The notes under the pieces: model-generated
The model's database searches: none
The model's input: the letters and a program-made list of their open reading frames with translations, nothing else
What the model was told of the DNA's origin: nothing
Assembly (NCBI RefSeq): GCF_000686845.1
Contig: NZ_JMLS01000004.1
Coordinates: forward strand, 248,001-312,000
Direction: 5' to 3'
Length of the DNA stretch: 64,000 nt
Source of the DNA: Paenibacillus sp. UNC451MF
GTDB taxonomy: Bacteria > Bacillota > Bacilli > Paenibacillales > NBRC-103111
Part shown: positions 47,668 to 58,731 of the stretch, in pieces
How positions within the stretch are numbered: the stretch's first letter is position 1
Layout: each line of letters opens with the position of its first letter
Made by a program: the position numbers and the translations under genes

Positions 47668-48057
47668 TTATGCGGGCAGCAGCTTGACCACCGTTTCGAT
47701 AATGACCGATACAATTGGAATAGCCATTACCATAATTAAAATTTTGCCGGATAGTTCAATTTTGGAGGCGATCGATTCTTGCCCTGCATCCCTTACGATC
47801 TGAGCACCGAATTCTGCGATATAAGCGATACCGATGATTTTCAAGATCGTTTTGAGGAAAATCATATTCACGTTCGCATTCAGTGCGAGATCCTCCAGGA
47901 TTTGAATGACCGAAGCGATCTTGCCAATCAGAAACAAAAAGATGACGATCCCCGTAAATGCAGTCAGCAGGAAAGCGAATATCGGCTTTTGTTCCTTGAT
48001 GATCAGTACCAGTATGGTGGCGATTAAGCCCAGACCTACGATTTGTATGATCTCCAC
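47668..48057 (-). CDS. spoIIIAD: Stage III sporulation protein AD
   Basis: Membrane component with weak relation to type III secretion export proteins. 129 aa with four spans; FLLTAFTGIVIFLFLIGKI and IAEFGAQIVRDAGQESIASKIELSGKILIMV are typical. It starts 16 nt after spoIIIAC. Confidence 0.93.
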   Translation of the reverse strand: MEIIQIVGLGLIATILVLIIKEQKPIFAFLLTAFTGIVIFLFLIGKIASVIQILEDLALNANVNMIFLKTILKIIGIAYIAEFGAQIVRDAGQESIASKIELSGKILIMVMAIPIVSVIIETVVKLLPA

Positions 48058-48073
48058 TAAGTCTCACCTACGT

Positions 48074-48277
48074 CTACTGAAATAAAAAAATGGTTTTGAT
48101 TTCCTTGAACAAATTATCAAGCAGGTTGACAACCATGAACAGAACGACAACGAAGCCTATTAATGTAACCCAGTGTGCCATGTCCTCTTTGCCCATTTGC
48201 TTAAGCACGGTATGAATCATCGCGATAATAATCCCGATTCCGGCAATCTGAAATATCGCGTTCACATCTACGTTCAT
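48074..48277 (-). CDS. spoIIIAC: Stage III sporulation protein AC
   Basis: A 67-aa protein of two membrane spans (about 5-22 and 38-56) with the conserved IFQIAGIGIIIAMIHTVLKQMGKEDMAHW. ATG48277 follows GAGGTG; a GTG three codons earlier is part of that site. In B. subtilis spoIIIAC is 68 aa. The 130-nt gap from spoIIIAB, unusual for this operon, contains direct repeats. Confidence 0.93.
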   Translation of the reverse strand: MNVDVNAIFQIAGIGIIIAMIHTVLKQMGKEDMAHWVTLIGFVVVLFMVVNLLDNLFKEIKTIFLFQ

Positions 48278-48309
48278 TCGTGGCACCTCACCTCTAGCCT
48301 CTAACTTCC

Positions 48310-48411
48310 TAACCGTGCAACTTTCTGCTGACTCTGCTGCATTGCTTGAATAGTCGTTGCAGATCCCCTGACAACCGACTCTGCTTCGCTTGAGTAACCG
48401 TTGCAGGTTAA
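48310..48411 (-). repeat. Two imperfect direct repeats between spoIIIAB and spoIIIAC
   Basis: In the gene sense, CTGCAACGGTTACTCAAGCG...CAGAGTCGG and CTGCAACGACTATTCAAGCA...CAGAGTCAG are imperfect copies about 33 bp long, roughly 45 bp apart, with a decayed trace (AGTTGCACGG) closer to spoIIIAC. The sequence differs from the GCTTACGAAG hairpin family but the placement is the same. Confidence 0.65.
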
Positions 48412-48926
48412 TACATCAAAATAACGATTAAAGCACCCATTAATAAGCCCAGGCTTCTCCACATGCTTTCATACCGCTTACGCTCTTCCTCCGAGCTATC
48501 CAGCTCACCCTGCAGCTGCTGGATTGCCAAGCGAAGATGTTTCACTTGATCTACACTATCCGACAAGCCGAGTGTAAAACCCAATTGGCGAACAATATCC
48601 TGTTCTCCCGCCTTCATCGAGGTGTGTTTCCAGTGCTCTTGAAGCGACTGCTGCCATATTTGTTGAGCGGAGCGTCCGCCAGCTTGCCCTAGCTCCTCCG
48701 CAGTATGACGGAAGATAGCATTGACCGGCTGCGGGCAAGATTTGGCTACCTTCATCAAAGCTTCTTGCAGTGGAGTCATGCCGTACACGATTTCCGTCTC
48801 CAACCTTTGCAGCGCCCTGATAATATCACCGATTTGCTTAGGCCTGCGGGAATACTGTTGTGCTTGATAAAATCCGAACAAGGTCGCGGACAGTAAAATC
48901 ATCATCGCCCCTAAAAGCTTCAGCAA
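48408..48926 (-). CDS. spoIIIAB: Stage III sporulation protein AB
   Basis: Resembles a GspF/PilC-type inner-membrane component. 172 aa with an N-terminal span (LLKLLGAMMILLSATLFGFY) and a C-terminal one (LGLLMGALIVILM); RRPKQIGDIIRALQRLETEIVYGMTPLQEAL is diagnostic. The start is TTG48926, 7 nt after AAGGGGG and overlapping the spoIIIAA stop as TTGCTGA. The open frame extends to 48989 but those codons are within spoIIIAA. Confidence 0.92.
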   Translation of the reverse strand: MLKLLGAMMILLSATLFGFYQAQQYSRRPKQIGDIIRALQRLETEIVYGMTPLQEALMKVAKSCPQPVNAIFRHTAEELGQAGGRSAQQIWQQSLQEHWKHTSMKAGEQDIVRQLGFTLGLSDSVDQVKHLRLAIQQLQGELDSSEEERKRYESMWRSLGLLMGALIVILMY

Positions 48927-50029
48927 TGATCTTCCCCCTTCCCCTTCGATGAGCGGATTGACGACGAGAACGCCGAATTCCCAGTCCAATCTATTGAAGC
49001 TTCTTTCCTGCTTATCCCTAAGGATGGAGTTATTTCAGCTGCGGATACATGAACAGTTGGCTTCGCTAACTCGAGTCTGTTCCCTTTGGCATCATAGACC
49101 CCCTCCAGTGTGCCCGCACCAGCTTTTTTGTTCAAAACAACGATTCGGTTGAATACTCCTTCGTCGAGCAGCTCTTGAAGAACCGGCCTCCTCCTGACAT
49201 CGTCTTGATGCAAACCGTGTGCTGTTGCAATAACACGAATACCCGCATGAATCGCTTCATGAATGGCTGACGCGTCCTCATGTCGACCTATCTCATCTAC
49301 GATAAGAATTTCAGGAGACATCGATCGGATCATCATCATCATTCCTTCCGCCTTAGGACAGCCGTCCAGCACATCTGTACGAGGTCCCAGATCGAAACGT
49401 GGAACACCTCGATCGCACGCTGCGATTTCGGAACGTTCATCGACAATGCCTACCTTCAAGCCTCGCTCTAATCCATAGAGCGCTCCTGCTGATGGCCCTC
49501 CGCTGATTAGCCTTGCCAAGTCGCGAATCAAGGTTGTCTTTCCCTGCTGCGGGGGTGAGACGATCAGCGTATGGTGTACGCTGCCTGTCGAGGCATCCAT
49601 CATATAGGGGAGCACATGGCTTCCAACACCTTTTAACTCTCTAGCAATCCGGATATTAAAGCTGGTAATTTCTTTCAAATGCTTGACTTTACCGTGCTCC
49701 AATACCACCCTTCCCGCGAGTCCAATCCGATGTCCTCCCTGAACCGTTATGTATCCGCGGCGCAGCTCTTCATCGAAGGTGTAAAGTGAATGCTGTGTCA
49801 GCATTTCAAGCAAAGTGGAGCAATCCTCCCTGGTAGGCCGGTATGCAAGTGCGGGATCATCGCAAAGACCGGAGTTTCCTTCTACGAAGCTGTACTTTTG
49901 TCCCCATACAATTTCTAACGGTCGCTCTTCACGAACCCGAATCTCTTGTAAATCCTTCATCACCGGGTTTGGTAGAGTTGCTAGTCTTTGGCGCAGAGGG
50001 ACAGAAAAAAGCCGGAGAAGCGAATGCAT
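48920..50029 (-). CDS. spoIIIAA: Stage III sporulation protein AA, secretion-type ATPase
   Basis: Related to type II/IV secretion ATPases; energises the mother-cell-to-forespore channel. Walker A is VSPPQQGKTTLIRDLA and Walker B EILIVDEIGRHEDASA; FDLGPRTDVLDGCPKAEGMMMMIRSMSPE is the family segment. ATG50029 follows GGGGGG by 9 nt. It lies downstream of a sigma-E-like promoter that would start transcription near 50061, so longer frames to 50068 are excluded. 369 aa, about 60 more than in B. subtilis, including a polar C-terminal tail of about 45 residues after the ATPase fold. Confidence 0.94.
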   Translation of the reverse strand: MHSLLRLFSVPLRQRLATLPNPVMKDLQEIRVREERPLEIVWGQKYSFVEGNSGLCDDPALAYRPTREDCSTLLEMLTQHSLYTFDEELRRGYITVQGGHRIGLAGRVVLEHGKVKHLKEITSFNIRIARELKGVGSHVLPYMMDASTGSVHHTLIVSPPQQGKTTLIRDLARLISGGPSAGALYGLERGLKVGIVDERSEIAACDRGVPRFDLGPRTDVLDGCPKAEGMMMMIRSMSPEILIVDEIGRHEDASAIHEAIHAGIRVIATAHGLHQDDVRRRPVLQELLDEGVFNRIVVLNKKAGAGTLEGVYDAKGNRLELAKPTVHVSAAEITPSLGISRKEASIDWTGNSAFSSSIRSSKGKGEDHC

Positions 50030-50067
50030 TTCTTTCATCCCCCCAAGCTGTCCATCTTTCATAATCA

Positions 50068-50095
50068 TGTGTATGCTTGGACGAAGTAATTATGA
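50068..50095 (-). promoter_or_regulatory. Sigma-E-like promoter of the spoIIIA operon
   Basis: On the minus strand TCATAAT (50089-50095), 13 nt, CATACACA (50068-50075); the sigma-E consensus is KMATATT-13/14-CATACAMT. Mother-cell control of spoIIIA by sigma-E is established in B. subtilis. Confidence 0.6.
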
Positions 50096-50099
50096 CTAT

Positions 50100-50366
50100 T
50101 TACTTTTTAAGAATTCCTATAAAAATGCAGCTCACACCTGCTATAACCCAGATCATTTTGCCAAAAGAAAGCTTTTCCGCGAGTCCTACCAGTCCAAGCG
50201 TAGTCGTTGTCAATAAAACAAGGGGCCCTACCATAGCTAGTCCGGTGTTAACCATCAAAGCTTTATCAATTTGATTCAATCGGAGCATTATTAATGCAGC
50301 CATAATTTCGATAGTGCCTGAGAACAGTCGCAGCGAAGCCATGCTGAGCACGATCTTATTGATCAC
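50100..50366 (-). CDS. yqhV: YqhV-like DUF2619 membrane protein
   Basis: An 88-aa protein with three membrane spans. LSMASLRLFSGTIEIMAALIML and LMVNTGLAMVGPLVLLTTTTLGL match YqhV, which also precedes spoIIIAA in B. subtilis. Function unknown; sporulation-linked by location. GTG50366 follows AAAGGGGAG by 7 nt, and the frame from 50393 includes that site. Confidence 0.85.
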   Translation of the reverse strand: MINKIVLSMASLRLFSGTIEIMAALIMLRLNQIDKALMVNTGLAMVGPLVLLTTTTLGLVGLAEKLSFGKMIWVIAGVSCIFIGILKK

Positions 50367-50536
50367 TGTTTTTCTCCCCTTTCTTAAACACACTATAGTA
50401 CTAAGCCGTTGACAGCTTCTCTATCAATCTATGCAGGCTCGTCTCATTTTAGGCATCATGGGCACACCCCTAAATCCAACTGCATATGATGACACAGAAA
50501 TCAACACAAAAAATGTAAACAGCGAGGCGATAGGAC

Positions 50537-51370
50537 ATGGAGGTAACGTCACATCTTAAGTGGCATCCCCTGCTCAGCGATCCGACAGGAAAGCGTACTG
50601 TTAAACCACGAGCACTTGGAAAAACCATGGTAATCGATAAAGGATTGGGCATTCATGCTCTTGAAGATTTATTGCAGACAGCTGGCGATTACGTTGATAT
50701 GTTAAAAATCGGTTTCGGTACTTCTCCTCTTTATTCCACGTCTTTGCTGAGACGGAAAATAGAAATGGCCAAGGAACACAATATTTTGGTATACCCTGGC
50801 GGTACGTTCCTAGAGGTCGCCATGTGTCAAGGCGCTGTTGACGACTTTTTTGATATGGCAAGTTTTCTTGGGTTTAACGGACTGGAAATTTCGGACGGAA
50901 CTATCGAAGTAGAAAGAGCGGTACGGAGTGAATTGATCCGTCGTGGACGAGATCAGGGCTATACGGTCATAACAGAATACGGAAAAAAATGCTGGGGCTC
51001 GTCCATCGAAATCGAAGATTTAATAGAAACCGTCATAATCGATTCCGAATTAGGTGCTAGTCTGATTACTATTGAAGGACGAGAATCAGGTAAAGGTGTA
51101 GGCATCTTTGATGAGAACGGCAGCTGCAAGGACGCAGATATTGAATTGGTGCTCAGCCAAGTCCCTAGTAAGCATCTGCTCTTATGGGAGGCGCCTCATA
51201 AAGACCAGCAGGTACATCTGCTGAACACTCTGGGAACGGATATTCATTTAGGCAACATCGCGCCTTCCGATTTAATTTCGCTGGAGGCTCTTCGCCGAGG
51301 CTTAAGATCCGACACCCTCCATTTAGGGCAGGAACTCCCTTCTGACTATAATGGAAACTGGGAAATATAG
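50537..51370 (+). CDS. comA: Phosphosulfolactate synthase (ComA family)
   Basis: Catalyses Michael addition of sulfite to phosphoenolpyruvate giving (R)-phosphosulfolactate. 277 aa. Family segments: RALGKTMVIDKGLGIHALEDLL, YVDMLKIGFGTSPLY, VYPGGTFLEVA and GFNGLEISDGTIEV, plus VITEYGKKCWGSS and LWEAPHKDQQVHLL. In methanogens this starts coenzyme M synthesis; in Bacillus spores sulfolactate is an abundant solute, and yitC/yitD-type genes are sporulation-linked. It is divergent from yqhV-spoIIIAA and followed by comB. The ribosome site is weak. Confidence 0.92.
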   Translation: MEVTSHLKWHPLLSDPTGKRTVKPRALGKTMVIDKGLGIHALEDLLQTAGDYVDMLKIGFGTSPLYSTSLLRRKIEMAKEHNILVYPGGTFLEVAMCQGAVDDFFDMASFLGFNGLEISDGTIEVERAVRSELIRRGRDQGYTVITEYGKKCWGSSIEIEDLIETVIIDSELGASLITIEGRESGKGVGIFDENGSCKDADIELVLSQVPSKHLLLWEAPHKDQQVHLLNTLGTDIHLGNIAPSDLISLEALRRGLRSDTLHLGQELPSDYNGNWEI

Positions 51371-51475
51371 GCTCAAAAACTCTGCATATGCTTTTTATAG
51401 CCAATTCTAACTGGCGCGAAAAAACTCAGTGTATGCTTTCGTAGCCAGTTTTTGCTGGCGCAAAAACTCTTAGGA
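51370..51475 (+). repeat. Hairpin units between comA and comB
   Basis: AGTTTTTGC/GCAAAAACT form a 9-bp perfect stem with a TGGC loop (51447-51468), ending just before CTTAGGAGG of comB. The block CTCAGTGTATGCTTTCGTAG precedes it. A decayed copy (CTCTGCATATGCTTTTTATAG and a mismatched GCCA...TGGC stem) lies upstream. This is the only plus-strand array in the window and its polarity follows comB. Confidence 0.85.
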
Positions 51476-51485
51476 GGCACCAACC

Positions 51486-52223
51486 GTGGACATTACGGTA
51501 CTACCCAGCGTCAATGAGGCTCGCGCTGACGAACTAATCAACAAAACGGTCATCGTTATCGATGTCCTTCGCGCCACCAGCACCATACTCACTGCACTAT
51601 CTCATGGATGCAAAGCGATATATCCTGTTGAAACAGTACTGCAAGCTAAACAGCTTTATCAGCCCGGTTTTGTTCTGGGAGGAGAACGTGCATGCAAAAA
51701 AATACCGGGATTCGATCTCGGCAATTCTCCCTTGGAATATACGGCTGCAAGTATCGCAGGCAAAACTCTAATCATGACAACAACGAACGGAACCCGTGCC
51801 ATTCAAAAAGCCAACAAAGCAGGAACCATTCTTGCCGCATCTCTATTAAATGGTAGGGCATGTGCAGAAGAAGCTATAACCTTGAAAAAGGATATCATCA
51901 TTCTCTGTTCTGGAACTCAGGACGTGTATTCATTCGAGGATGGAGTATGTGCAGGACAGCTTACGGATGAGCTTTTGCAGAGTGCAGTGGGCAGTGGAAC
52001 GGAGCTAAATATCAATGATTTCGGACTTAGTATGCTGTATACTTATCGCCACGTTCAATCTAATCTAACGGAAGCATTAATAAACTGTGCGAATGGCAAA
52101 AGACTTAGTAAGCTAGGCTTCCTCGAGGACATTAAATATTGCTCGGAAATGAACACCATTCCCTTAGTGCCCATTGTTCGCGAAGGGAAGCTTGTCGTTC
52201 CCTCCGTCTCTCAGCACACCTGA
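51486..52223 (+). CDS. comB: 2-Phosphosulfolactate phosphatase (ComB family)
   Basis: Removes phosphate from phosphosulfolactate giving sulfolactate. 245 aa. VIVIDVLRATSTILTAL, FVLGGERACKKIPGFDLGNSP, LIMTTTNGTRAIQKA and ILCSGTQDVYSFEDGVCAGQL are ComB signatures. It starts GTG51486, after CTTAGGAGG. No genes for later coenzyme M steps are nearby, so the product is probably sulfolactate itself. Confidence 0.93.
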   Translation: MDITVLPSVNEARADELINKTVIVIDVLRATSTILTALSHGCKAIYPVETVLQAKQLYQPGFVLGGERACKKIPGFDLGNSPLEYTAASIAGKTLIMTTTNGTRAIQKANKAGTILAASLLNGRACAEEAITLKKDIIILCSGTQDVYSFEDGVCAGQLTDELLQSAVGSGTELNINDFGLSMLYTYRHVQSNLTEALINCANGKRLSKLGFLEDIKYCSEMNTIPLVPIVREGKLVVPSVSQHT

Positions 52224-52253
52224 TAGAGTTCGTTGCCTGTTCTAAAAACTCGT

Positions 52254-52293
52254 CCCCCTCATACACTTAGAAGGAAGTCTATGAGACAAGGGG
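52254..52293 (+). promoter_or_regulatory. Hairpin that would cover the DUF441 ribosome site
   Basis: CCCC-CTCATA (52254-52263) pairs with TATGAG-acaa-GGGG (52280-52293); the GGGG is the Shine-Dalgarno of the gene at 52301. The stem has a 4-nt bulge and a 16-nt loop. It may modulate translation; no ligand family is recognised. Confidence 0.45.
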
Positions 52294-52300
52294 TCTTTCG

Positions 52301-52765
52301 ATGAACGGTGATATACTGCTGTTAGTTCTCATCATTATCGGTCTGATAGGGCGCTCCCCTATTATTACAACGGCTGCCTGTGTGCTGCTCATTGTAAAGC
52401 TGATTCATCTGGAGCGCTACCTGCCGACTATCGAACGTCGGGGACTGGAGCTTGGGCTGCTATTTCTAACGATGGGAGTGCTTGTTCCGTTTGCCAGTCA
52501 ACGGATTACTTATAAAGATATTACCAGCATGTTTACGACATGGCCAGGTATATTAGCTCTTCTTGGCGGAGCCATTGCAACCTACATGAACGGAAAAGGG
52601 TTAGAGCTGTTAAAAATAGACCCACAACTCGTTGTGGGCCTTGTCATCGGTTCTATCTTCGGTATTATTTTTCTAAAAGGGATTCCTGTAGGTCCGTTGA
52701 TGGCTGCAGGAATTACCGCTTTCTTATTAAAGCTGTTTACGTTTATGTTCGACAAGCTGAAATAA
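52301..52765 (+). CDS. DUF441 family membrane protein
   Basis: A 154-aa protein of about four membrane spans. [25 protein letters not shown] at the N terminus and [29 protein letters not shown] at the C terminus match DUF441 (YtwI-like); function unknown. Start ATG52301, 7 nt after AAGGGG. It ends 3 nt from the convergent lysC stop, with no terminator between them. Confidence 0.87.
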
Positions 52766-52768
52766 AGC

Positions 52769-53287
52769 TTATCTACGATCTTGGGGTCCGCCAACAAAAA
52801 CTGTTGTATCGGTGTCCAAGCCATATGCCGTATGCAGTGCTTGAATTACTTCGTTTAAGCGGCTGTTGTCGATGACGCATGAGGTTTTGATCTCCGATGT
52901 GCTGACCATGTTGATGCTAAGACCAAGATCGGAAATAACCTCGAACATTTTAGCAGCTACTCCAGGAGTACTTACCATACCTGCGCCTACGATGGAAACT
53001 TTAACAAGGTTCTCCTGGGAGGAAACTTCACGGAAGCCCACCTCGGAACGGATGCCTTGAATAACTTCCAAAGCTCTATCCTTATCAGTTAGAGAAACTG
53101 TGAAGGAAAAGTCTGCTTGTCCGTTCATGATACCGCTCTGTACGATAATATCTACATCGATTTGCTCTTTAGCCAAAGCTGTAAACACTTTAGCCAATTG
53201 ACCCGGTTTTTCTTCTATTCCGAGGATACTGATTCTAGCCACATTTTTATCGCTTGCAATCCCGCGAACAACGATTCCTTGCTCCAT
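52769..53287 (-). CDS. Probable in-frame beta subunit of aspartate kinase (internal start)
   Basis: Inside lysC, ATG53287 (MEQGIVVRGIAS) is preceded by AAGGAGG at 53296-53302 with an 8-nt spacer. It would yield a 172-aa protein consisting of the two ACT regulatory domains. B. subtilis aspartokinase II makes its beta subunit in just this way, from an internal start at the equivalent place. Expression of the short form here is inference. Confidence 0.7.
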   Translation of the reverse strand: MEQGIVVRGIASDKNVARISILGIEEKPGQLAKVFTALAKEQIDVDIIVQSGIMNGQADFSFTVSLTDKDRALEVIQGIRSEVGFREVSSQENLVKVSIVGAGMVSTPGVAAKMFEVISDLGLSINMVSTSEIKTSCVIDNSRLNEVIQALHTAYGLDTDTTVFVGGPQDRR

Positions 53288-54025
53288 CGCTGCTTCCTCC
53301 TTCACATTCGTACCTGCATTATGATTAAAGCTGGATCTTACGACCAGGGGTACATTGTAGTTCTTAGCATATTCAACAGCTCTCGGATGCAGCACAGCGG
53401 CACCCAGATTTGCCAGTTCCAGCATTTCGTCATACGTAATTTCCGGAAGCTTGCGCGCGCATTTGACTACGCGTGGATCCGTCGAATAAATACCATCTAC
53501 ATCGGTAAAAATTTCACATACATCGGCTTCAATAGCGGCTGCTAATGCAACGGCTGTTGTGTCGGATCCGCCGCGCCCTAATGTTGTAATCTCACCTTCT
53601 GTAGTCATTCCCTGGAATCCAGCTACAATAACAACGTTTCCTTGATTTAAAGCATTCAAGATTCTTTTGGGTTGGATATCTGTAATTCTTGCTTTTCCAT
53701 GTACACCTTCCGTGTACATCCCCGCTTGCCATCCGGTAAAGGATAGAGCTGGTTGGCCCAAACTTTGGATAGCCATAGAGAGCAGAGCTACGGATACTTG
53801 CTCACCTGTAGTCAACAGCATATCCATCTCACGTGCAGGAGGCGTTACCGAACAAATTTGCTTCGACAAGTCTATCAAATCATCTGTTGTATCACCCATT
53901 GCAGAAACGACAACTACGCATTGGTTGCCTTCCCGCTGTCTCTCTACTACACGATTGGCTACACGTTTCATCCGTTCCGCATCACCAACGGAACTGCCGC
54001 CGAATTTCATCACTATAAGAGACAA
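52769..54025 (-). CDS. lysC: Aspartate kinase
   Basis: Phosphorylates aspartate, the first step to lysine, diaminopimelate, threonine and methionine. 418 aa. Catalytic domain: VMKFGGSSVGD at the N terminus, LTTGEQVSVALL, GRGGSDTTAVALAAAIEADVCEIFTDVDGIYSTDPR. Two ACT domains from about residue 263. It resembles lysine-sensitive aspartokinase II, and like it has a strong in-frame internal start (53287). No lysine riboswitch is visible in the 145-nt leader; a sigma-A-like promoter lies at 54068. Confidence 0.94.
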   Translation of the reverse strand: MSLIVMKFGGSSVGDAERMKRVANRVVERQREGNQCVVVVSAMGDTTDDLIDLSKQICSVTPPAREMDMLLTTGEQVSVALLSMAIQSLGQPALSFTGWQAGMYTEGVHGKARITDIQPKRILNALNQGNVVIVAGFQGMTTEGEITTLGRGGSDTTAVALAAAIEADVCEIFTDVDGIYSTDPRVVKCARKLPEITYDEMLELANLGAAVLHPRAVEYAKNYNVPLVVRSSFNHNAGTNVKEEAAMEQGIVVRGIASDKNVARISILGIEEKPGQLAKVFTALAKEQIDVDIIVQSGIMNGQADFSFTVSLTDKDRALEVIQGIRSEVGFREVSSQENLVKVSIVGAGMVSTPGVAAKMFEVISDLGLSINMVSTSEIKTSCVIDNSRLNEVIQALHTAYGLDTDTTVFVGGPQDRR

Positions 54026-54067
54026 AGCTGTTCACTCCCTACCGAAACTTTTGCATAACAATGTATC

Positions 54068-54096
54068 ATTATACCATAAGAACGCCTAAGGTTGAA
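54068..54096 (-). promoter_or_regulatory. Sigma-A-like promoter of lysC
   Basis: TTCAAC (54091-54096), 17 nt, consensus TATAAT (54068-54073) on the minus strand, giving a leader of about 35 nt. That is too short for an L-box riboswitch. Confidence 0.65.
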
Positions 54097-54170
54097 GTAG
54101 AAAAATGTCGAATTAGCCCACTATGCAAGCCATTACTCTACCTTATTCTGGATTTTCTGTTTTCGATAAA

Positions 54171-54644
54171 TTATGGTAAATTCCTGCATCTCATTTTACG
54201 GCCAATGGTTAACACATAAGCAGTATATCCAACAAGTCCTCCAATTACATTCAGTATAATATCGTCAACATCAAAGCTGCCTACTTTGAAAATGAACTGT
54301 ATGGATTCTACTAAAAGCAATGCCCAAAATAACAGATTCATTAACTTGTACCACTTTGTATAAGAACGGAATAATACAGGAATCAAAAACCCGAATGGCA
54401 CAAATGCCGCTACATTTCCAAAAAGATTAATGATCCAAATGTCCAGGTTATAATATTGGATGTCGGCGATATAATTCCAAATCGTTTTGAATGGGGTCAG
54501 ATTGTACAGCCTCTCCGTCCGTGTCGCGCGCGAGAAGCCGAAAAAAAGCAAGTAAATCATCAGGAGGGTATACGACAAGAATAGAAGCCATGTCGCCCGA
54601 GAAACTAGCTTCAATTGCAAGACCTGCCTCAATGGAATCAGCAC
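54171..54644 (-). CDS. VanZ-like membrane protein
   Basis: A 157-aa protein with about four spans. RLYNLTPFKTIWNYI, NLFGNVAAFVPFGFLIPVLF and VGSFDVDDIILNVIGGLVGY are the VanZ-like signatures. VanZ gives low teicoplanin resistance in enterococci, but most family members have unknown roles. The start is uncertain: GTG54644 and downstream TTG codons are possible. Confidence 0.82.
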   Translation of the reverse strand: MLIPLRQVLQLKLVSRATWLLFLSYTLLMIYLLFFGFSRATRTERLYNLTPFKTIWNYIADIQYYNLDIWIINLFGNVAAFVPFGFLIPVLFRSYTKWYKLMNLLFWALLLVESIQFIFKVGSFDVDDIILNVIGGLVGYTAYVLTIGRKMRCRNLP

Positions 54645-54743
54645 CTTTGCTTCTATTAACCTCGAAAGCTTCTCATCTTATAACGCAGTATGACCACTTT
54701 TAATTGTGGTGTGGGTTGCACATTATTATCATCGATTCATTAT

Positions 54744-54772
54744 ATAAAAAAACCTGCCATTATGGCAGGTTT
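54744..54772 (-). terminator. Intrinsic terminator after efp
   Basis: AACCTGCCAT and ATGGCAGGTT abut as a tight stem on the minus strand, followed by TTTTTTTATA. Confidence 0.9.
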
Positions 54773-54797
54773 CGATACGCACCAGGGCGGCTTTACA

Positions 54798-55355
54798 CTA
54801 AGCGCGGGAAATGTATTTACCTTCACGAGAGTCGATCAACAGTACATCGCCTTCGTTAATGAACAAAGGTACTTGGACGCTTAAGCCGGTTTCAAGCTTC
54901 GCACTTTTCGTAGCACCTGTAGCCGTGTTTCCTTTGATACCTGGCTCAGTTTCAACGACTTTCAGTTCGATGCTGTTAGGCAGGTTAATACCCAAAATTT
55001 CACCTTGATAGCTCATAATATGAATCATCATGTTTTCTTTCAAGAAGTTCAGTTCCCACTCCAATTGCTTAGCTGGCAAGCTGAATTGATCATAGGTTTC
55101 TGTATCCATGAATGTATGCTCGGTACCACTTGCGTACAAGTATTGCATTTCGCGGTTTTCGATATGTGCACGACCTACGTTTTCACCCGCACGGAAAGTA
55201 CGTTCAACGGTGTTACCGTTACGGAGGTTTTTCAATTTAGAACGAACGAAAGCTGCACCTTTACCTGGTTTTACGTGTTGAAAATCAATTACGGTGAACA
55301 AATCGCCGTCAACTTCAATTGTTAAGCCTGTCTTAAAATCGTTTACTGATACCAC
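54798..55355 (-). CDS. efp: Translation elongation factor P
   Basis: Relieves ribosome stalling at polyproline. Exactly 185 aa from GTG55355, which follows AGGGAGG by 9 nt; the frame to 55412 is non-family. [13 protein letters not shown] opens the protein and the modifiable Lys32 sits in [13 protein letters not shown], the type 5-aminopentanolylated in B. subtilis. C-terminal OB domains include [13 protein letters not shown] and YISRA. It follows the M24 peptidase by about 77 nt. Confidence 0.96.
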
Positions 55356-55432
55356 TGAAAAATACCTCCCTAAAAATGTGAGCAGAAGTCCTGAGAATCC
55401 ATTCGGGTTCAAGCTTCCACCAAGATGTTGTA

Positions 55433-56506
55433 CTAATCCAATGCAATCAAGTCTTTGCTTGAATGCGTCAATATTTTAATTCCGGTGTCTGTAACGACGA
55501 TATCATCTTCGATCCGAACCCCACCGAAGCCAGGCAAGTAAATGCCAGGTTCGACCGTTACAACCATGCCGGGCGTTAAAACCGTCTCTCCATTCTTAGA
55601 AAGCCGCGGCGCTTCATGGACTTCCATTCCCAAACCGTGACCTGTACCGTGACCAAAATAGTCTCCATACCCGTAGCGTTGGATGATATCTCTTGCGACT
55701 GCATCCGCTTCTTTTCCTGTCATTCCCGGTTTGATCTTGTCCAAAGCCGTCATTTGTGCCTCTAGAACGATATTGTAAATCTCCTTATGCTTATCAGTCG
55801 GTTTGCCCACAACTACGGTTCTCGTAATATCCGAGCAATACCTTTTATAATAAGCGCCGTAATCCAATGTGACAAATTCATCTGCCTGAAGAATACGATC
55901 GCTTGCTTTGCCGTGCGGTAATGCAGACCGTTCGCCGGACGCGACTATCGTTTCAAACGAAGTGGAAGCCGCTCCATTTTTGCGTACGAACATCTCCATT
56001 TCTAACGCAATATCTGCTTCTTTGGCACCTGGCTTCAGAAAATTCAATATGTGCGTAAAGGTACGGTCAGCCAAGTCAGCCGCTTCCTGAAGTACAGCAA
56101 TCTCGGACTCGTCCTTGATGACACGCAGCTTCTCAACAATTCCGTCCGTCGCTGCCAACTCAATGCCGCTTAACGCTTTGGCCGTAGTTTGGTATGCACC
56201 GTAGGTCATGTCATTCTGTTCAAAGCCGACTTTGGAGATGCCTTGCTTAGTAAGAAGATCTCTGGCTGTTTCCATTGGGTTTGGAGCATGCTCCACAACC
56301 TCAAAAGCAGTTGCTTGTGCAGGTGCTTGGGTCATGTAGCGGAAATCCGTCAAAAGATACGCTTTAGTCTCGGAAATTAACACAATGCCGGATGATCCGG
56401 TAAAGCCCGTCATGTAAAGGCGGTTAACTGCATTGGTAATTAAAAGCGCCTTTAGTCCTTGCTCTTGCAAAACAGTGCGAAGGCGTTCAATACGTGCTTG
56501 CTGCAT
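55433..56506 (-). CDS. M24 family Xaa-Pro aminopeptidase (YqhT-like)
   Basis: Di-metal peptidase that removes N-terminal residues before proline. Creatinase-like N domain (about 1-125) then pita-bread domain with metal ligands in [18 protein letters not shown] (two Asp), [19 protein letters not shown] (His), [11 protein letters not shown] and [11 protein letters not shown] (two Glu). 357 aa. It lies 3 nt after aroQ and before efp, as in B. subtilis, where both concern proline-rich peptides. Confidence 0.92.
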
Positions 56507-56509
56507 TTG

Positions 56510-56956
56510 TTATCCCTCCAAGGAATTGAGGTGGCTTACGACGGCACGCAGGCCGAGCTCGTAGCTGTCTACACCAAGGCCGGCAATTTGCCCTAGTGCA
56601 ACGGGTGCGATCACCGAAACATGGCGAAACGCTTCTCTTTTGTGGATGTTCGATATATGTACTTCAATAGTCGGAATTCGAACTGCTTCAATTGCATCAC
56701 GGATAGCGTAGCTGTAGTGAGTAAACGCCCCAGGATTCATCACAATGCCGTCTTTTACCGAAAAGGCTTCGTGGATCTTGTCAATCAAGGCGCCCTCGTG
56801 ATTGGATTGGAAGCACTCCAGCTCCACCGATAGCTCTTCCGCCAGCTTCATCAGCCGCTGTTCAATCACTTGAAGCGATGTCGTGCCGTACACGCCAGGT
56901 TCGCGAATACCGAGCATGTTCAAATTCGGACCGTTTAATACCAGGATTTTTTTCAA
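56510..56956 (-). CDS. aroQ: Type II 3-dehydroquinate dehydratase
   Basis: Third step of the shikimate pathway. 148 aa. [10 protein letters not shown] with the active-site Tyr in [21 protein letters not shown] (His/Glu) and [23 protein letters not shown]-like [13 protein letters not shown] near the end. TTG56956 is the likely start, 8 nt after GGAGGGA, giving the standard [11 protein letters not shown]; the frame from ATG56971 spans that site. Confidence 0.95.
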
Positions 56957-57073
56957 TGTCGGTCCCTCCATCGATGTTTCTTTAGCCTATTCAGAATACA
57001 CACCCGACTATTTTACCATAAGTTTCTTCCGTTTGAGAACTGTTTTTTGCAACCTGCCGCTTCTAAACCCGAT

Positions 57074-57580
57074 TTATTCCGGCTGAGGATCCTGCTTCCC
57101 GGTTTGAAATGGTTCCCTCTCACGCTCATCGTTAAATTCCATTGAAATGCTATAACCAATAAACAGCCCCCATACTATAAACAAGCAGACTTCAGTAATG
57201 ATCGTATTCCAGTCCAGATAGGCTATCCAATTCATCATTCCTGTTACGGGTCCGATTAATAAAAAAATCAATGCCCACCATACAGCTCCGTAAGCAACCC
57301 CCGGCCAGGGTCCAGTAGACTTTGAAAACATGGCTGTATACAATAAGGAAGCGACAATGGAAAAGAGGATGAAAGTTGCCCAACCTACCATGTAGCCTTG
57401 AAAGCTAATCAAAAAAGATCGTTTGTAGAAATGCTCAACTAAAAAGCCTGGAGGCAGAATGGTGAAGTGAAGATAGTGCTCCAGCATTTTCACGGCACCC
57501 CATATCAATCCAGCAAAAAAACCGATATTAATTGAAAATAGCCAACGATTGGAAGGGACTTTGGCTCTTGGATCGTTCAT
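57074..57580 (-). CDS. yqhR: YqhR-like conserved membrane protein
   Basis: 168 aa, about four membrane spans and a charged C-terminal tail. Family-like segments FSINIGFFAGLIWGAVKMLEHYLHFT and PGVAYGAVWWALIFLLIGPVTGM; function unknown. ATG57580 lies 6 nt after AGGAGG. It holds the yqhR position between yqhQ and aroQ. Confidence 0.85.
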   Translation of the reverse strand: MNDPRAKVPSNRWLFSINIGFFAGLIWGAVKMLEHYLHFTILPPGFLVEHFYKRSFLISFQGYMVGWATFILFSIVASLLYTAMFSKSTGPWPGVAYGAVWWALIFLLIGPVTGMMNWIAYLDWNTIITEVCLFIVWGLFIGYSISMEFNDEREREPFQTGKQDPQPE

Positions 57581-57792
57581 GCTGTTCCTCCTGGAATGAC
57601 CTCTCACTAGCTATCCCTTATCTGATTCAGATCAGCTATGATGGTTTTTGTTCGACTTTATCAAGCACTTTGAACGGTTGAATACCGTTAGTATATACAA
57701 ATATTTGTCCCCTAAACGGTAGCATTCTCGCTTTGAATCCGATACAATAATGTAGAGTCCCATTTTATTTTTAGCAGAAGAAGGTGTAATCG

Positions 57793-58731
57793 TTGTCGCA
57801 AAAAGAGAAACCATGCGCCATTTACGGTGGTCAAGCCGTGATCGAAGGGGTCATGTTTGGAGGCCAAAGTGTAAACGTGACGGCCGTTCGCCGTAAAGAT
57901 AATTCCATTGAGTATTTGGAAGTGCCCAAGACTGAACTCGGTTGGGTACGACCTTTAAAGAAGATACCTTTCATCCGTGGTATCGTAGGCATAGTGGAGG
58001 CCAGCGCCAAAGGAGCACAGCATCTTAACTTTTCAGCAGAAGCTTTTGCCGAGGAGGAAGGGGACGGAGCTCCGAAAAAAGAGAAAAAGGAATCCGCTGC
58101 AGGACGAATATCAATGATTCTCGGCGTAGCTGTAGTCGGGATATTATCCTTTATATTCGGAAAGTTCATATTCACACTTGTCCCTCCTATCATCGAGCAG
58201 CTGTTGTTCTCCAAATTGTTTGAAAACCAAATCGGCCACAACTTGGTGGAAGGTCTCATCAAAATTGTACTGCTGATTGGTTATATTTACTTTATTTCGT
58301 TAACGCCGATGATTAAACGACTATTTCAATATCATGGAGCAGAACATAAAGTGATCAGTGCCTATGAAGCAGGTGTGGATCTAACGGTTGAAAATGTACA
58401 AAAATTCAGCACGCTGCACTACCGTTGCGGAAGCAGCTTCATCGTATTCACCGTATTAGTCGGTGTCGTGATCTATTCGTTCTTTACCTACGATTCCTTC
58501 GTAGAACGGATTGTACAACGTATTGTTCTGTTGCCTGTTGTTATTGGTGTTTCTTATGAAGTACTTCGTTTTACTAACAGCTTGCGCGAAGTTCCTGTCC
58601 TTCGTTATCTCGGATATCCCGGTTTGTGGCTGCAAATGCTTACGACCAAACAGCCGGATAATTCGATGGTCGAGGTATCCATTGCTTCTTTTAATCGAAT
58701 GAGAGAATTAGACGAACAAGCAAGAGCATAA
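57793..58731 (+). CDS. yqhQ: YqhQ-like DUF1385 membrane protein
   Basis: 312 aa. IYGGQAVIEGVMFGGQSVNVTAVR at the N terminus and YHGAEHKVISAYEAGVDLTVENV in the middle are DUF1385 signatures; about four spans. RCGSSFIVF and YPGLWLQMLTTKQPD complete the pattern. Function unknown, broadly conserved in Firmicutes and actinobacteria. It starts at TTG57793 after AGAAGGTG. Divergent from yqhR; a small gene follows 23 nt downstream. Confidence 0.9.
   Translation: MSQKEKPCAIYGGQAVIEGVMFGGQSVNVTAVRRKDNSIEYLEVPKTELGWVRPLKKIPFIRGIVGIVEASAKGAQHLNFSAEAFAEEEGDGAPKKEKKESAAGRISMILGVAVVGILSFIFGKFIFTLVPPIIEQLLFSKLFENQIGHNLVEGLIKIVLLIGYIYFISLTPMIKRLFQYHGAEHKVISAYEAGVDLTVENVQKFSTLHYRCGSSFIVFTVLVGVVIYSFFTYDSFVERIVQRIVLLPVVIGVSYEVLRFTNSLREVPVLRYLGYPGLWLQMLTTKQPDNSMVEVSIASFNRMRELDEQARA

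Follow-up and report, generated by a model that had tools for sequence, protein, structure and literature searches.

The presence of comA and comB homologues beside the spoIIIA sporulation operon in Paenibacillus sp. UNC451MF raises the question of what enzymes named from coenzyme M synthesis would do in such a setting. The two genes lie in a 64,000-nucleotide stretch of contig NZ_JMLS01000004.1 (positions 248,001 to 312,000; hereafter the window, from whose first letter coordinates are counted), where comA (50537..51370, plus strand; 277 aa, ATG start) and comB (51486..52223, plus strand; 245 aa, GTG start) are divergent from yqhV and spoIIIAA and are followed on the 3′-side by genes for DUF441, LysC, a VanZ-like protein and Efp. 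A sequence-only reading of the window had described this arrangement, which profile scores and gene order confirm. We consider it likely that comAB belong to a conserved module for sulfolactate synthesis in spore formers, activated in the mother cell at a late stage. The reactions from phosphoenolpyruvate (PEP) and sulfite through phosphosulfolactate to sulfolactate are established; by family membership, ComA, a phosphosulfolactate synthase, would add sulfite to PEP to form 2-phospho-3-sulfolactate, and ComB would remove the phosphate to yield (R)-sulfolactate. Transcription of comA would proceed from a sigma-K-type promoter late in sporulation, and the product, like that of B. subtilis, would build up in the forming spore. 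Because sulfolactate would be made in the mother cell, it would need to cross the forespore membranes, for which YqhV, DUF441 and/or a major facilitator superfamily (MFS) protein resembling the exporter BcbE are the candidates.

Conservation and ancestry of the comAB locus

The window ComA scored 337.7 bits against TIGR03849 (NCBIfam; cut-off 280) and 271.8 against PF02679 (Pfam; cut-off 25.2), and is nearer to PDB 1qwg (192.9 bits), which we take to be the ComA of M. jannaschii, than to 1u83 (130.7 bits), presumably that of B. subtilis. ComB, a member of the 2-phosphosulfolactate phosphatase family, reached 250.5 bits against PF04029 (cut-off 26.4) and 164.8 bits against PDB 1vr0, a "probable 2-phosphosulfolactate phosphatase"; under the equivalog cut-offs of NCBIfam it passed none of the eight models listed (NF002054, 222.3 versus 330; TIGR00298, 151.4 versus 175.05).

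Within the host's family, comA was found in 103 of 104 genomes; the one without a match is an assembly of 440 contigs. For 79 of the carriers, 80 comA copies were compared within stretches no longer than 15 kb: yqhV is on the divergent, upstream side of comA in 79 cases (4.9 kb off in one, L124), and comB and DUF441 are on the 3′-side in 77 cases each; the larger neighbourhood (acc genes, spoIIIA, lysC, efp, pepQ, aroQ) is kept in most of them. The adjacency of comAB to spoIIIA, whose recurrence in Paenibacillaceae the sequence-only reading had left as a question, is clearly recurrent in these family loci. The locus without yqhV is the second comA copy of genome G018 (L081; G018:C1:5113387-5128190), which is 65% identical to that of the window and has a similar upstream region; comB, DUF441, yqhV and spoIIIA were not found in its 15-kb stretch. 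In L064 (G002) and L108 (G088) comA is divided between two reading frames, and the comA matches of G009, G011 and G038 contain a stop; these broken copies may be either sequencing errors or decaying genes.

Nineteen loci of order-mates outside the family mostly have the arrangement of the window (yqhV in 17, DUF441 in 18, comB in 15), and a locus from a Bacillaceae metagenome-assembled genome (L277) holds the full set of spoIIIA, yqhV, MFS, comA, comB, DUF441 and efp. Six loci of Thermoactinomycetaceae, a label that comes from the ComA tree for three of them and from general knowledge for the other three, have the order spoIIIA, MFS, comA, DUF441, with efp next within the stretch in five. A maximum likelihood tree of 59 ComA proteins placed the window copy within a Bacilli clade of 28 rows (support 100/98), and most loci of that clade are beside spoIIIA. 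The B. subtilis protein (1u83) grouped with those of two order-mates, L211 and L213 (support 92/100), which carry a comB-comA pair located elsewhere; L211 ComA scores 345.6 bits to 1u83. A very divergent order-mate ComA (L198) is on a long branch outside both clades.

The simplest reading of these data is a comA locus of long standing in Bacilli, with B. subtilis relying on a ComA of different descent. From the family-wide presence and the ComA tree we reject a recent insertion or transfer of comAB into the locus, and the earlier description of these genes as inserted between yqhV and efp is not supported: the locus looks ancestral in this group, and the ComA of B. subtilis is of a different lineage. 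The B. subtilis yitCD genes nevertheless make the closest comparison. The same two enzyme families are involved, and, according to the part of PMC517825 cited here, yitCD is controlled in the mother cell mainly by sigma-K and weakly by sigma-E, and sulfolactate makes up 5% of the dry weight of B. subtilis spores (Bonsen 1969, as cited there), in agreement with what the sequence-only reading had stated of B. subtilis spores. The differences are that B. subtilis ComA belongs to a separate lineage, that the related L211 and L213 loci have the order comB-comA, and that the window ComA is not in the YitD clade.

A sigma-K-like promoter upstream of comA

A sigma-K-like element lies upstream of comA at 50462..50491 on the plus strand, with GCACA as the -35, a 15-nt spacer and GCATATGATG as the -10; no other match of its pattern occurs in the window (0.05 expected). 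It has the AC of a sigma-K -35, a spacing within 14-16 nt and the GCATAnnnT of the -10. Of the 80 family loci, 79 have the pattern nnACn-N14-16-GCATAnnnT[AG] no more than 160 nt ahead of comA, 72 of them with a spacing of exactly 15; sigma-K spacing is 14-16 with an optimum of 15, and that of sigma-E is 12, according to the same part of PMC517825. None of 16 other genes at family loci (11 to 79 loci each) had the pattern upstream, and the count was 0 for comB (77 loci), DUF441 (77), lysC (75), yqhV (79) and spoIIIAA (78). lysC, which had been proposed as a partner through diaminopimelate and dipicolinate supply, has the opposite orientation in the window, and the absence of the pattern upstream of it leads us to reject it as a member of the module. 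In other Paenibacillus whose comA is not next to spoIIIA the pattern is retained (8 of 8 named and 6 of 7 further loci), and it occurs at 2 of 2 comB-comA pairs of the B. subtilis type and at 2 of 2 loci of two other Bacilli. No sigma-70 promoter was found just upstream of comA in a scan that gave 3 matches in 49900-53000 versus 5.0 expected.

The dipicolinate synthase gene dpaA, which is sigma-K-controlled in B. subtilis, provides a reference within the genus. Its upstream region has the -35/15/-10 architecture seen at comA in 13 of 13 genomes, with TAACC-N15 in 12 and GCATAAGATG in 9. The spacers of these dpaA promoters (L331-L343) contain a TRGGC core similar to the one preceding comA, which resembles the GerE box consensus and is possibly a shared GerE site. 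The second dpaA copy of a genus-mate (L344; G101:C50:385681-386538) is without a sigma-K-like promoter. Like spoVFA/spoVFB (dpaA/dpaB), comAB would supply a small acid made in the mother cell for the spore; unlike them, they carry out a different chemistry, and whereas dipicolinate is imported by SpoV proteins, sulfolactate has only candidate carriers.

The divergent yqhV probably has a signal of its own, because the conserved elements part with their own gene in loci where the two genes are widely spaced. The comA-yqhV distance has a median of 147 bp but reaches 347 bp in L112, 237 bp in L123 and 4.9 kb in L124; in all three the whole -35/-10 element goes with comA and a CCTAAAATGAGACGAGC-like block with yqhV. 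L124 also has a GGGCACACCCC remnant on the yqhV side, the full -35/-10 pair being on the comA side. In the window the block reads CCTAAAATGAGACGAGCCTGCATA on the minus strand (50430..50453) and may be a yqhV promoter or regulator site. It is variable, since just 33 of the 79 family loci fit a regular expression for its 24 nt (0.06% of shuffled sequences).

Several points tell against the sigma-K assignment. The pattern was written after the sequences had been seen, and the 80 loci are related; shuffled sequences matched a laxer pattern at a rate of 4.8% and the final one at about 0.2%. The comA -10 ends in TG, with a last base G where the B. subtilis consensus has TA, a deviation that recurs in 12 of 13 dpaA promoters. 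The pattern was present in only 6 of 28 phylum-sample loci, in 3 of 6 from Thermoactinomycetaceae and in 2 of the 35 remaining named loci, so that sigma-K control beyond Paenibacillus relatives is supported for only part of the loci. A genome-wide search of the host gave 3 matches including comA versus 2 in a reversed control, so that no regulon was recovered; the other two matches look coding by eye. Finally, a sigma-E pattern (KMATATT, 12-15 nt, CATAnnnT; a match being a score of 6 of 7, reached by 0.3-0.6% of shuffles) was matched in front of comA at 11 of 135 loci and in front of DUF441 at 9 of 94, and sigma-E may therefore contribute. The same test gave 0 of 77 for yqhV, 0 of 80 for comB and 1 of 60 for MFS. 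According to the cited part of PMC517825, yqhV is sigma-E-controlled in B. subtilis; because the test failed to recover yqhV, we claim no sigma-E promoter for it. A sigma-K-type promoter fits the comA upstream sequence best, and the sigma-E or sigma-G control originally suggested gives way to it.

Partners of comA and the question of transport

The association with sporulation extends beyond the family. We surveyed a phylum sample of 348 genomes, of which 118 carry comA (over the cut-off), 296 spoIIIAA (best E below 1e-50), 152 yqhV and 178 DUF441; the counts and Fisher p values that follow ignore relatedness beyond the family counts given. spoIIIAA was present in 114 of the 118 comA carriers versus 182 of the 230 non-carriers (p 4.7e-6). 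Co-occurrence of comA and yqhV (both, comA only, yqhV only, neither) was 101/17/51/179 (p 4.7e-31), and it persisted among spoIIIAA carriers only (99/15/50/132, p 8e-25); that of comA and DUF441 was 109/9/67/163 (p 7e-32). Two genomes of 1.5-1.6 Mb from one family, that of L250 (G375) and G461, have comA, and neither spoIIIAA nor yqhV was found in them. L250 ComA, the only one of this pair to be placed in the tree, is on a long branch.

These genes are also physically linked. yqhV was within 6 kb of comA in at least 58 of the 101 genomes with both (at least 22 families), and DUF441 in at least 65 genomes (at least 27 families); one or the other was near comA in at least 74 genomes and at least 31 of the 54 comA families, and both in at least 49 genomes and at least 18 families. 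Among the matches listed, neither was near comA in 44 of the 118 comA genomes. In the 28 phylum-sample loci, spoIIIAA was near comA in 0, yqhV in 18, DUF441 in 18, comB in 17 and an MFS transporter gene in 20, and yqhV, comA, comB and DUF441 are codirectional, in that order, in at least 6. The linkage thus recurs away from the spoIIIA neighbourhood, and not every comA lineage holds all members. Because it persists where spoIIIAA is not near, YqhV seems, from gene order, to belong with the sulfolactate module and not with SpoIIIA. In Bacilli the module appears to be ancestral at its place beside spoIIIA, with linkages that extend beyond it. Of the sequence-only proposal that the location points to a spore metabolite, the sporulation role stands and is well supported at the sequence level by the sigma-K-like promoter, the presence of spoIIIAA in 114 of 118 comA carriers and the conserved locus, and adjacency to spoIIIA as the key fact does not, given its absence from all 28 of these loci.

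Other results run counter to a module of fixed composition and function. Four comA carriers are without a strong spoIIIAA match. yqhV was not found near comA in 32 of the 42 named loci L289-L330 (near in 10), nor, even at E up to 0.5, in any of the six Thermoactinomycetaceae loci. In one family (f10), where comA is located elsewhere in 9 of 10 loci, yqhV and DUF441 were each near comA in 1 of 10. Four Cohnella and five of the six Thermoactinomycetaceae loci have no comB beside comA. yqhV occurs without comA in 51 genomes and DUF441 in 67, and E. coli has DUF441 as well; YqhV and DUF441 therefore cannot serve sulfolactate only. The host's MFS orthologue (72% identity; C2:79145-80449) is unlinked and has no sigma-K pattern upstream, and remains a candidate carrier only.

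comA with DUF441 and no comB within a stretch of about 12.8 kb was seen in Cohnella L271, L272, L273 and L282 and in Thermoactinomycetaceae L289, L302, L319, L327 and L328, where the second step may be carried out by another phosphatase or comB may lie elsewhere. The MFS gene may replace YqhV in L289, L293, L302, L319, L327 and L328, in which comA is beside spoIIIA and yqhV went undetected.

We speculate that YqhV, DUF441 and the BcbE-like MFS protein carry sulfolactate, which is the weakest step of the proposed mechanism and one that we hold only tentatively. yqhV (50100..50393, minus strand; PF10942, DUF2619, 114.6 bits) encodes a 97-aa membrane protein with three helices in a structure model and with R22, E29, N49 and P57 invariant among 55 sequences. 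DUF441 (52301..52765, plus strand; PF04284, 166.6 bits), the conserved third gene of the module, encodes a 154-aa membrane protein with seven helical segments and G127-x-PVGPL invariant among 56 sequences. Comparison with solved structures gave no usable match: Foldseek found none for YqhV at E up to 0.001 or for DUF441 at E up to 10, and the best VIA Z among 12 chains for DUF441 was 4.5, over 57 residues with rmsd 4.9. yqhV and DUF441 are neighbours (47-922 bp) in four phylum genomes that lack comA (G209, G285, G336 and G241), which suggests that their products function together, with a broader substrate. One could imagine, though with still less assurance, that YqhV and DUF441 form a two-part membrane carrier that moves sulfolactate from mother cell to forespore, and perhaps another small acid where comA is missing, with sulfolactate an ancient bulk solute of Bacillota spores and the B. 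subtilis ComA-ComB separately acquired. The absence of yqhV beside comA in all six Thermoactinomycetaceae loci weakens this idea. A link of comA with yqhV or DUF441 was not found in the open-access literature searched, subscription papers being mostly outside it, and we regard transport as a new lead.

The third candidate, MFS_X1, is near comA in 20 of 28 phylum-sample and 26 of 42 named loci. Its best NCBIfam model is NF053757, the bacillibactin exporter BcbE (a type presumably also named YmfD), and because its scores of 432.7 and 452.3 are below the cut-off of 600, it is not a bacillibactin exporter by this test. Besides two MFS proteins, eight neighbours at the other Paenibacillus-type loci L278, L281, L284 and L211 were scanned; no match to a sulfate-reduction family came up, and for three there was no family match at all. 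Near the B. subtilis-type comB-comA pair, L211:9332-10243 encodes a YedA-like drug/metabolite exporter, below its model's cut-off, which is an export candidate.

An MFS neighbour from an exporter family also lends itself to another reading, in which comAB act late in sporulation mainly as a mother-cell sink for sulfite or reduced-sulfur waste, with the sulfolactate leaving through the MFS protein rather than being kept as a spore solute. In some lineages it is the MFS gene and not yqhV that is linked to comA, and sigma-K timing would suit a stage of protein turnover. The B. subtilis product, however, ends up in the spore, at the 5% of dry weight given in the cited part of PMC517825, and the linkage to yqhV and DUF441 would be left unexplained, so that we think this reading improbable. 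A frozen gene order around spoIIIA and efp, with no functional meaning for yqhV, DUF441 and comAB, would account for the conservation of the wider region in most family loci, but not for the 28 phylum-sample loci in which the partners stay near comA without spoIIIAA, nor for the adjacency of yqhV and DUF441 in the four comA-less genomes, and appears very unlikely. There is least to be said for comAB feeding another pathway, coenzyme M or a sulfonated metabolite, with sporulation incidental: ComA is named from coenzyme M synthesis, the window protein is above the cut-off of the archaeal ComA model, and 21 of the 104 genomes of the family show a full-length match, below cut-off, to sulfopyruvate decarboxylase beta (E 1e-38 to 1e-46), but this enzyme (TIGR03846) is over cut-off in 0 of 104, for which reason we reject coenzyme M synthesis, the host's best match has 36.2 bits versus 221.5 (E 2e-8), the promoter is sigma-K-like, and comA is nearly restricted to spoIIIAA carriers. 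The window pair thus shares with the archaeal ComA-ComB of M. jannaschii the enzyme families and the first two reactions, and differs from it in that no decarboxylase match exceeds the cut-off in the family, and in its sporulation setting.

Other features of the window and significance for spore formers

The remaining features bear less directly on the sulfolactate module. spoIIIAA (48920..50068, minus strand; TIGR02858, 375.4 bits) is a syntenic neighbour outside the module as defined. The VanZ-like gene between lysC and efp (54171-54644) is present in 11 of 80 family loci, all from genus-mates of the host, whose genome is 7.49 Mb and whose named relatives include P. foliorum, P. xerothermodurans and P. 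tyrfis. The gap between comA and comB (51371..51485, plus strand) contains two copies of a hairpin-bearing repeat with the core GCCAGTTTTTGCTGGCGCAAAAACTC. This is a dispersed genomic repeat and no conserved part of the locus (22 BLAST matches to the gap in the host genome at E up to 1, self included; RNA fold z -1.76), and we reject the gap as a regulatory element. Rfam gave nothing at the gathering score within 48000-58000.

Sulfolactate could pass for a peculiarity of B. subtilis, given that spores of B. megaterium and B. cereus lack it (Bonsen 1969, as quoted in the part of PMC517825 used here). The occurrence of comA in all but one genome of the host's family and in about a third of the phylum sample, nearly always with spoIIIAA, points instead to a module that would be widespread among spore formers. 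The proposed module gives a testable role to DUF441 and to YqhV, a protein seldom named in the open-access literature searched. It also predicts which spore formers would contain sulfolactate and release it at germination, a release that the cited part of PMC9826295 raises for heated sediments.

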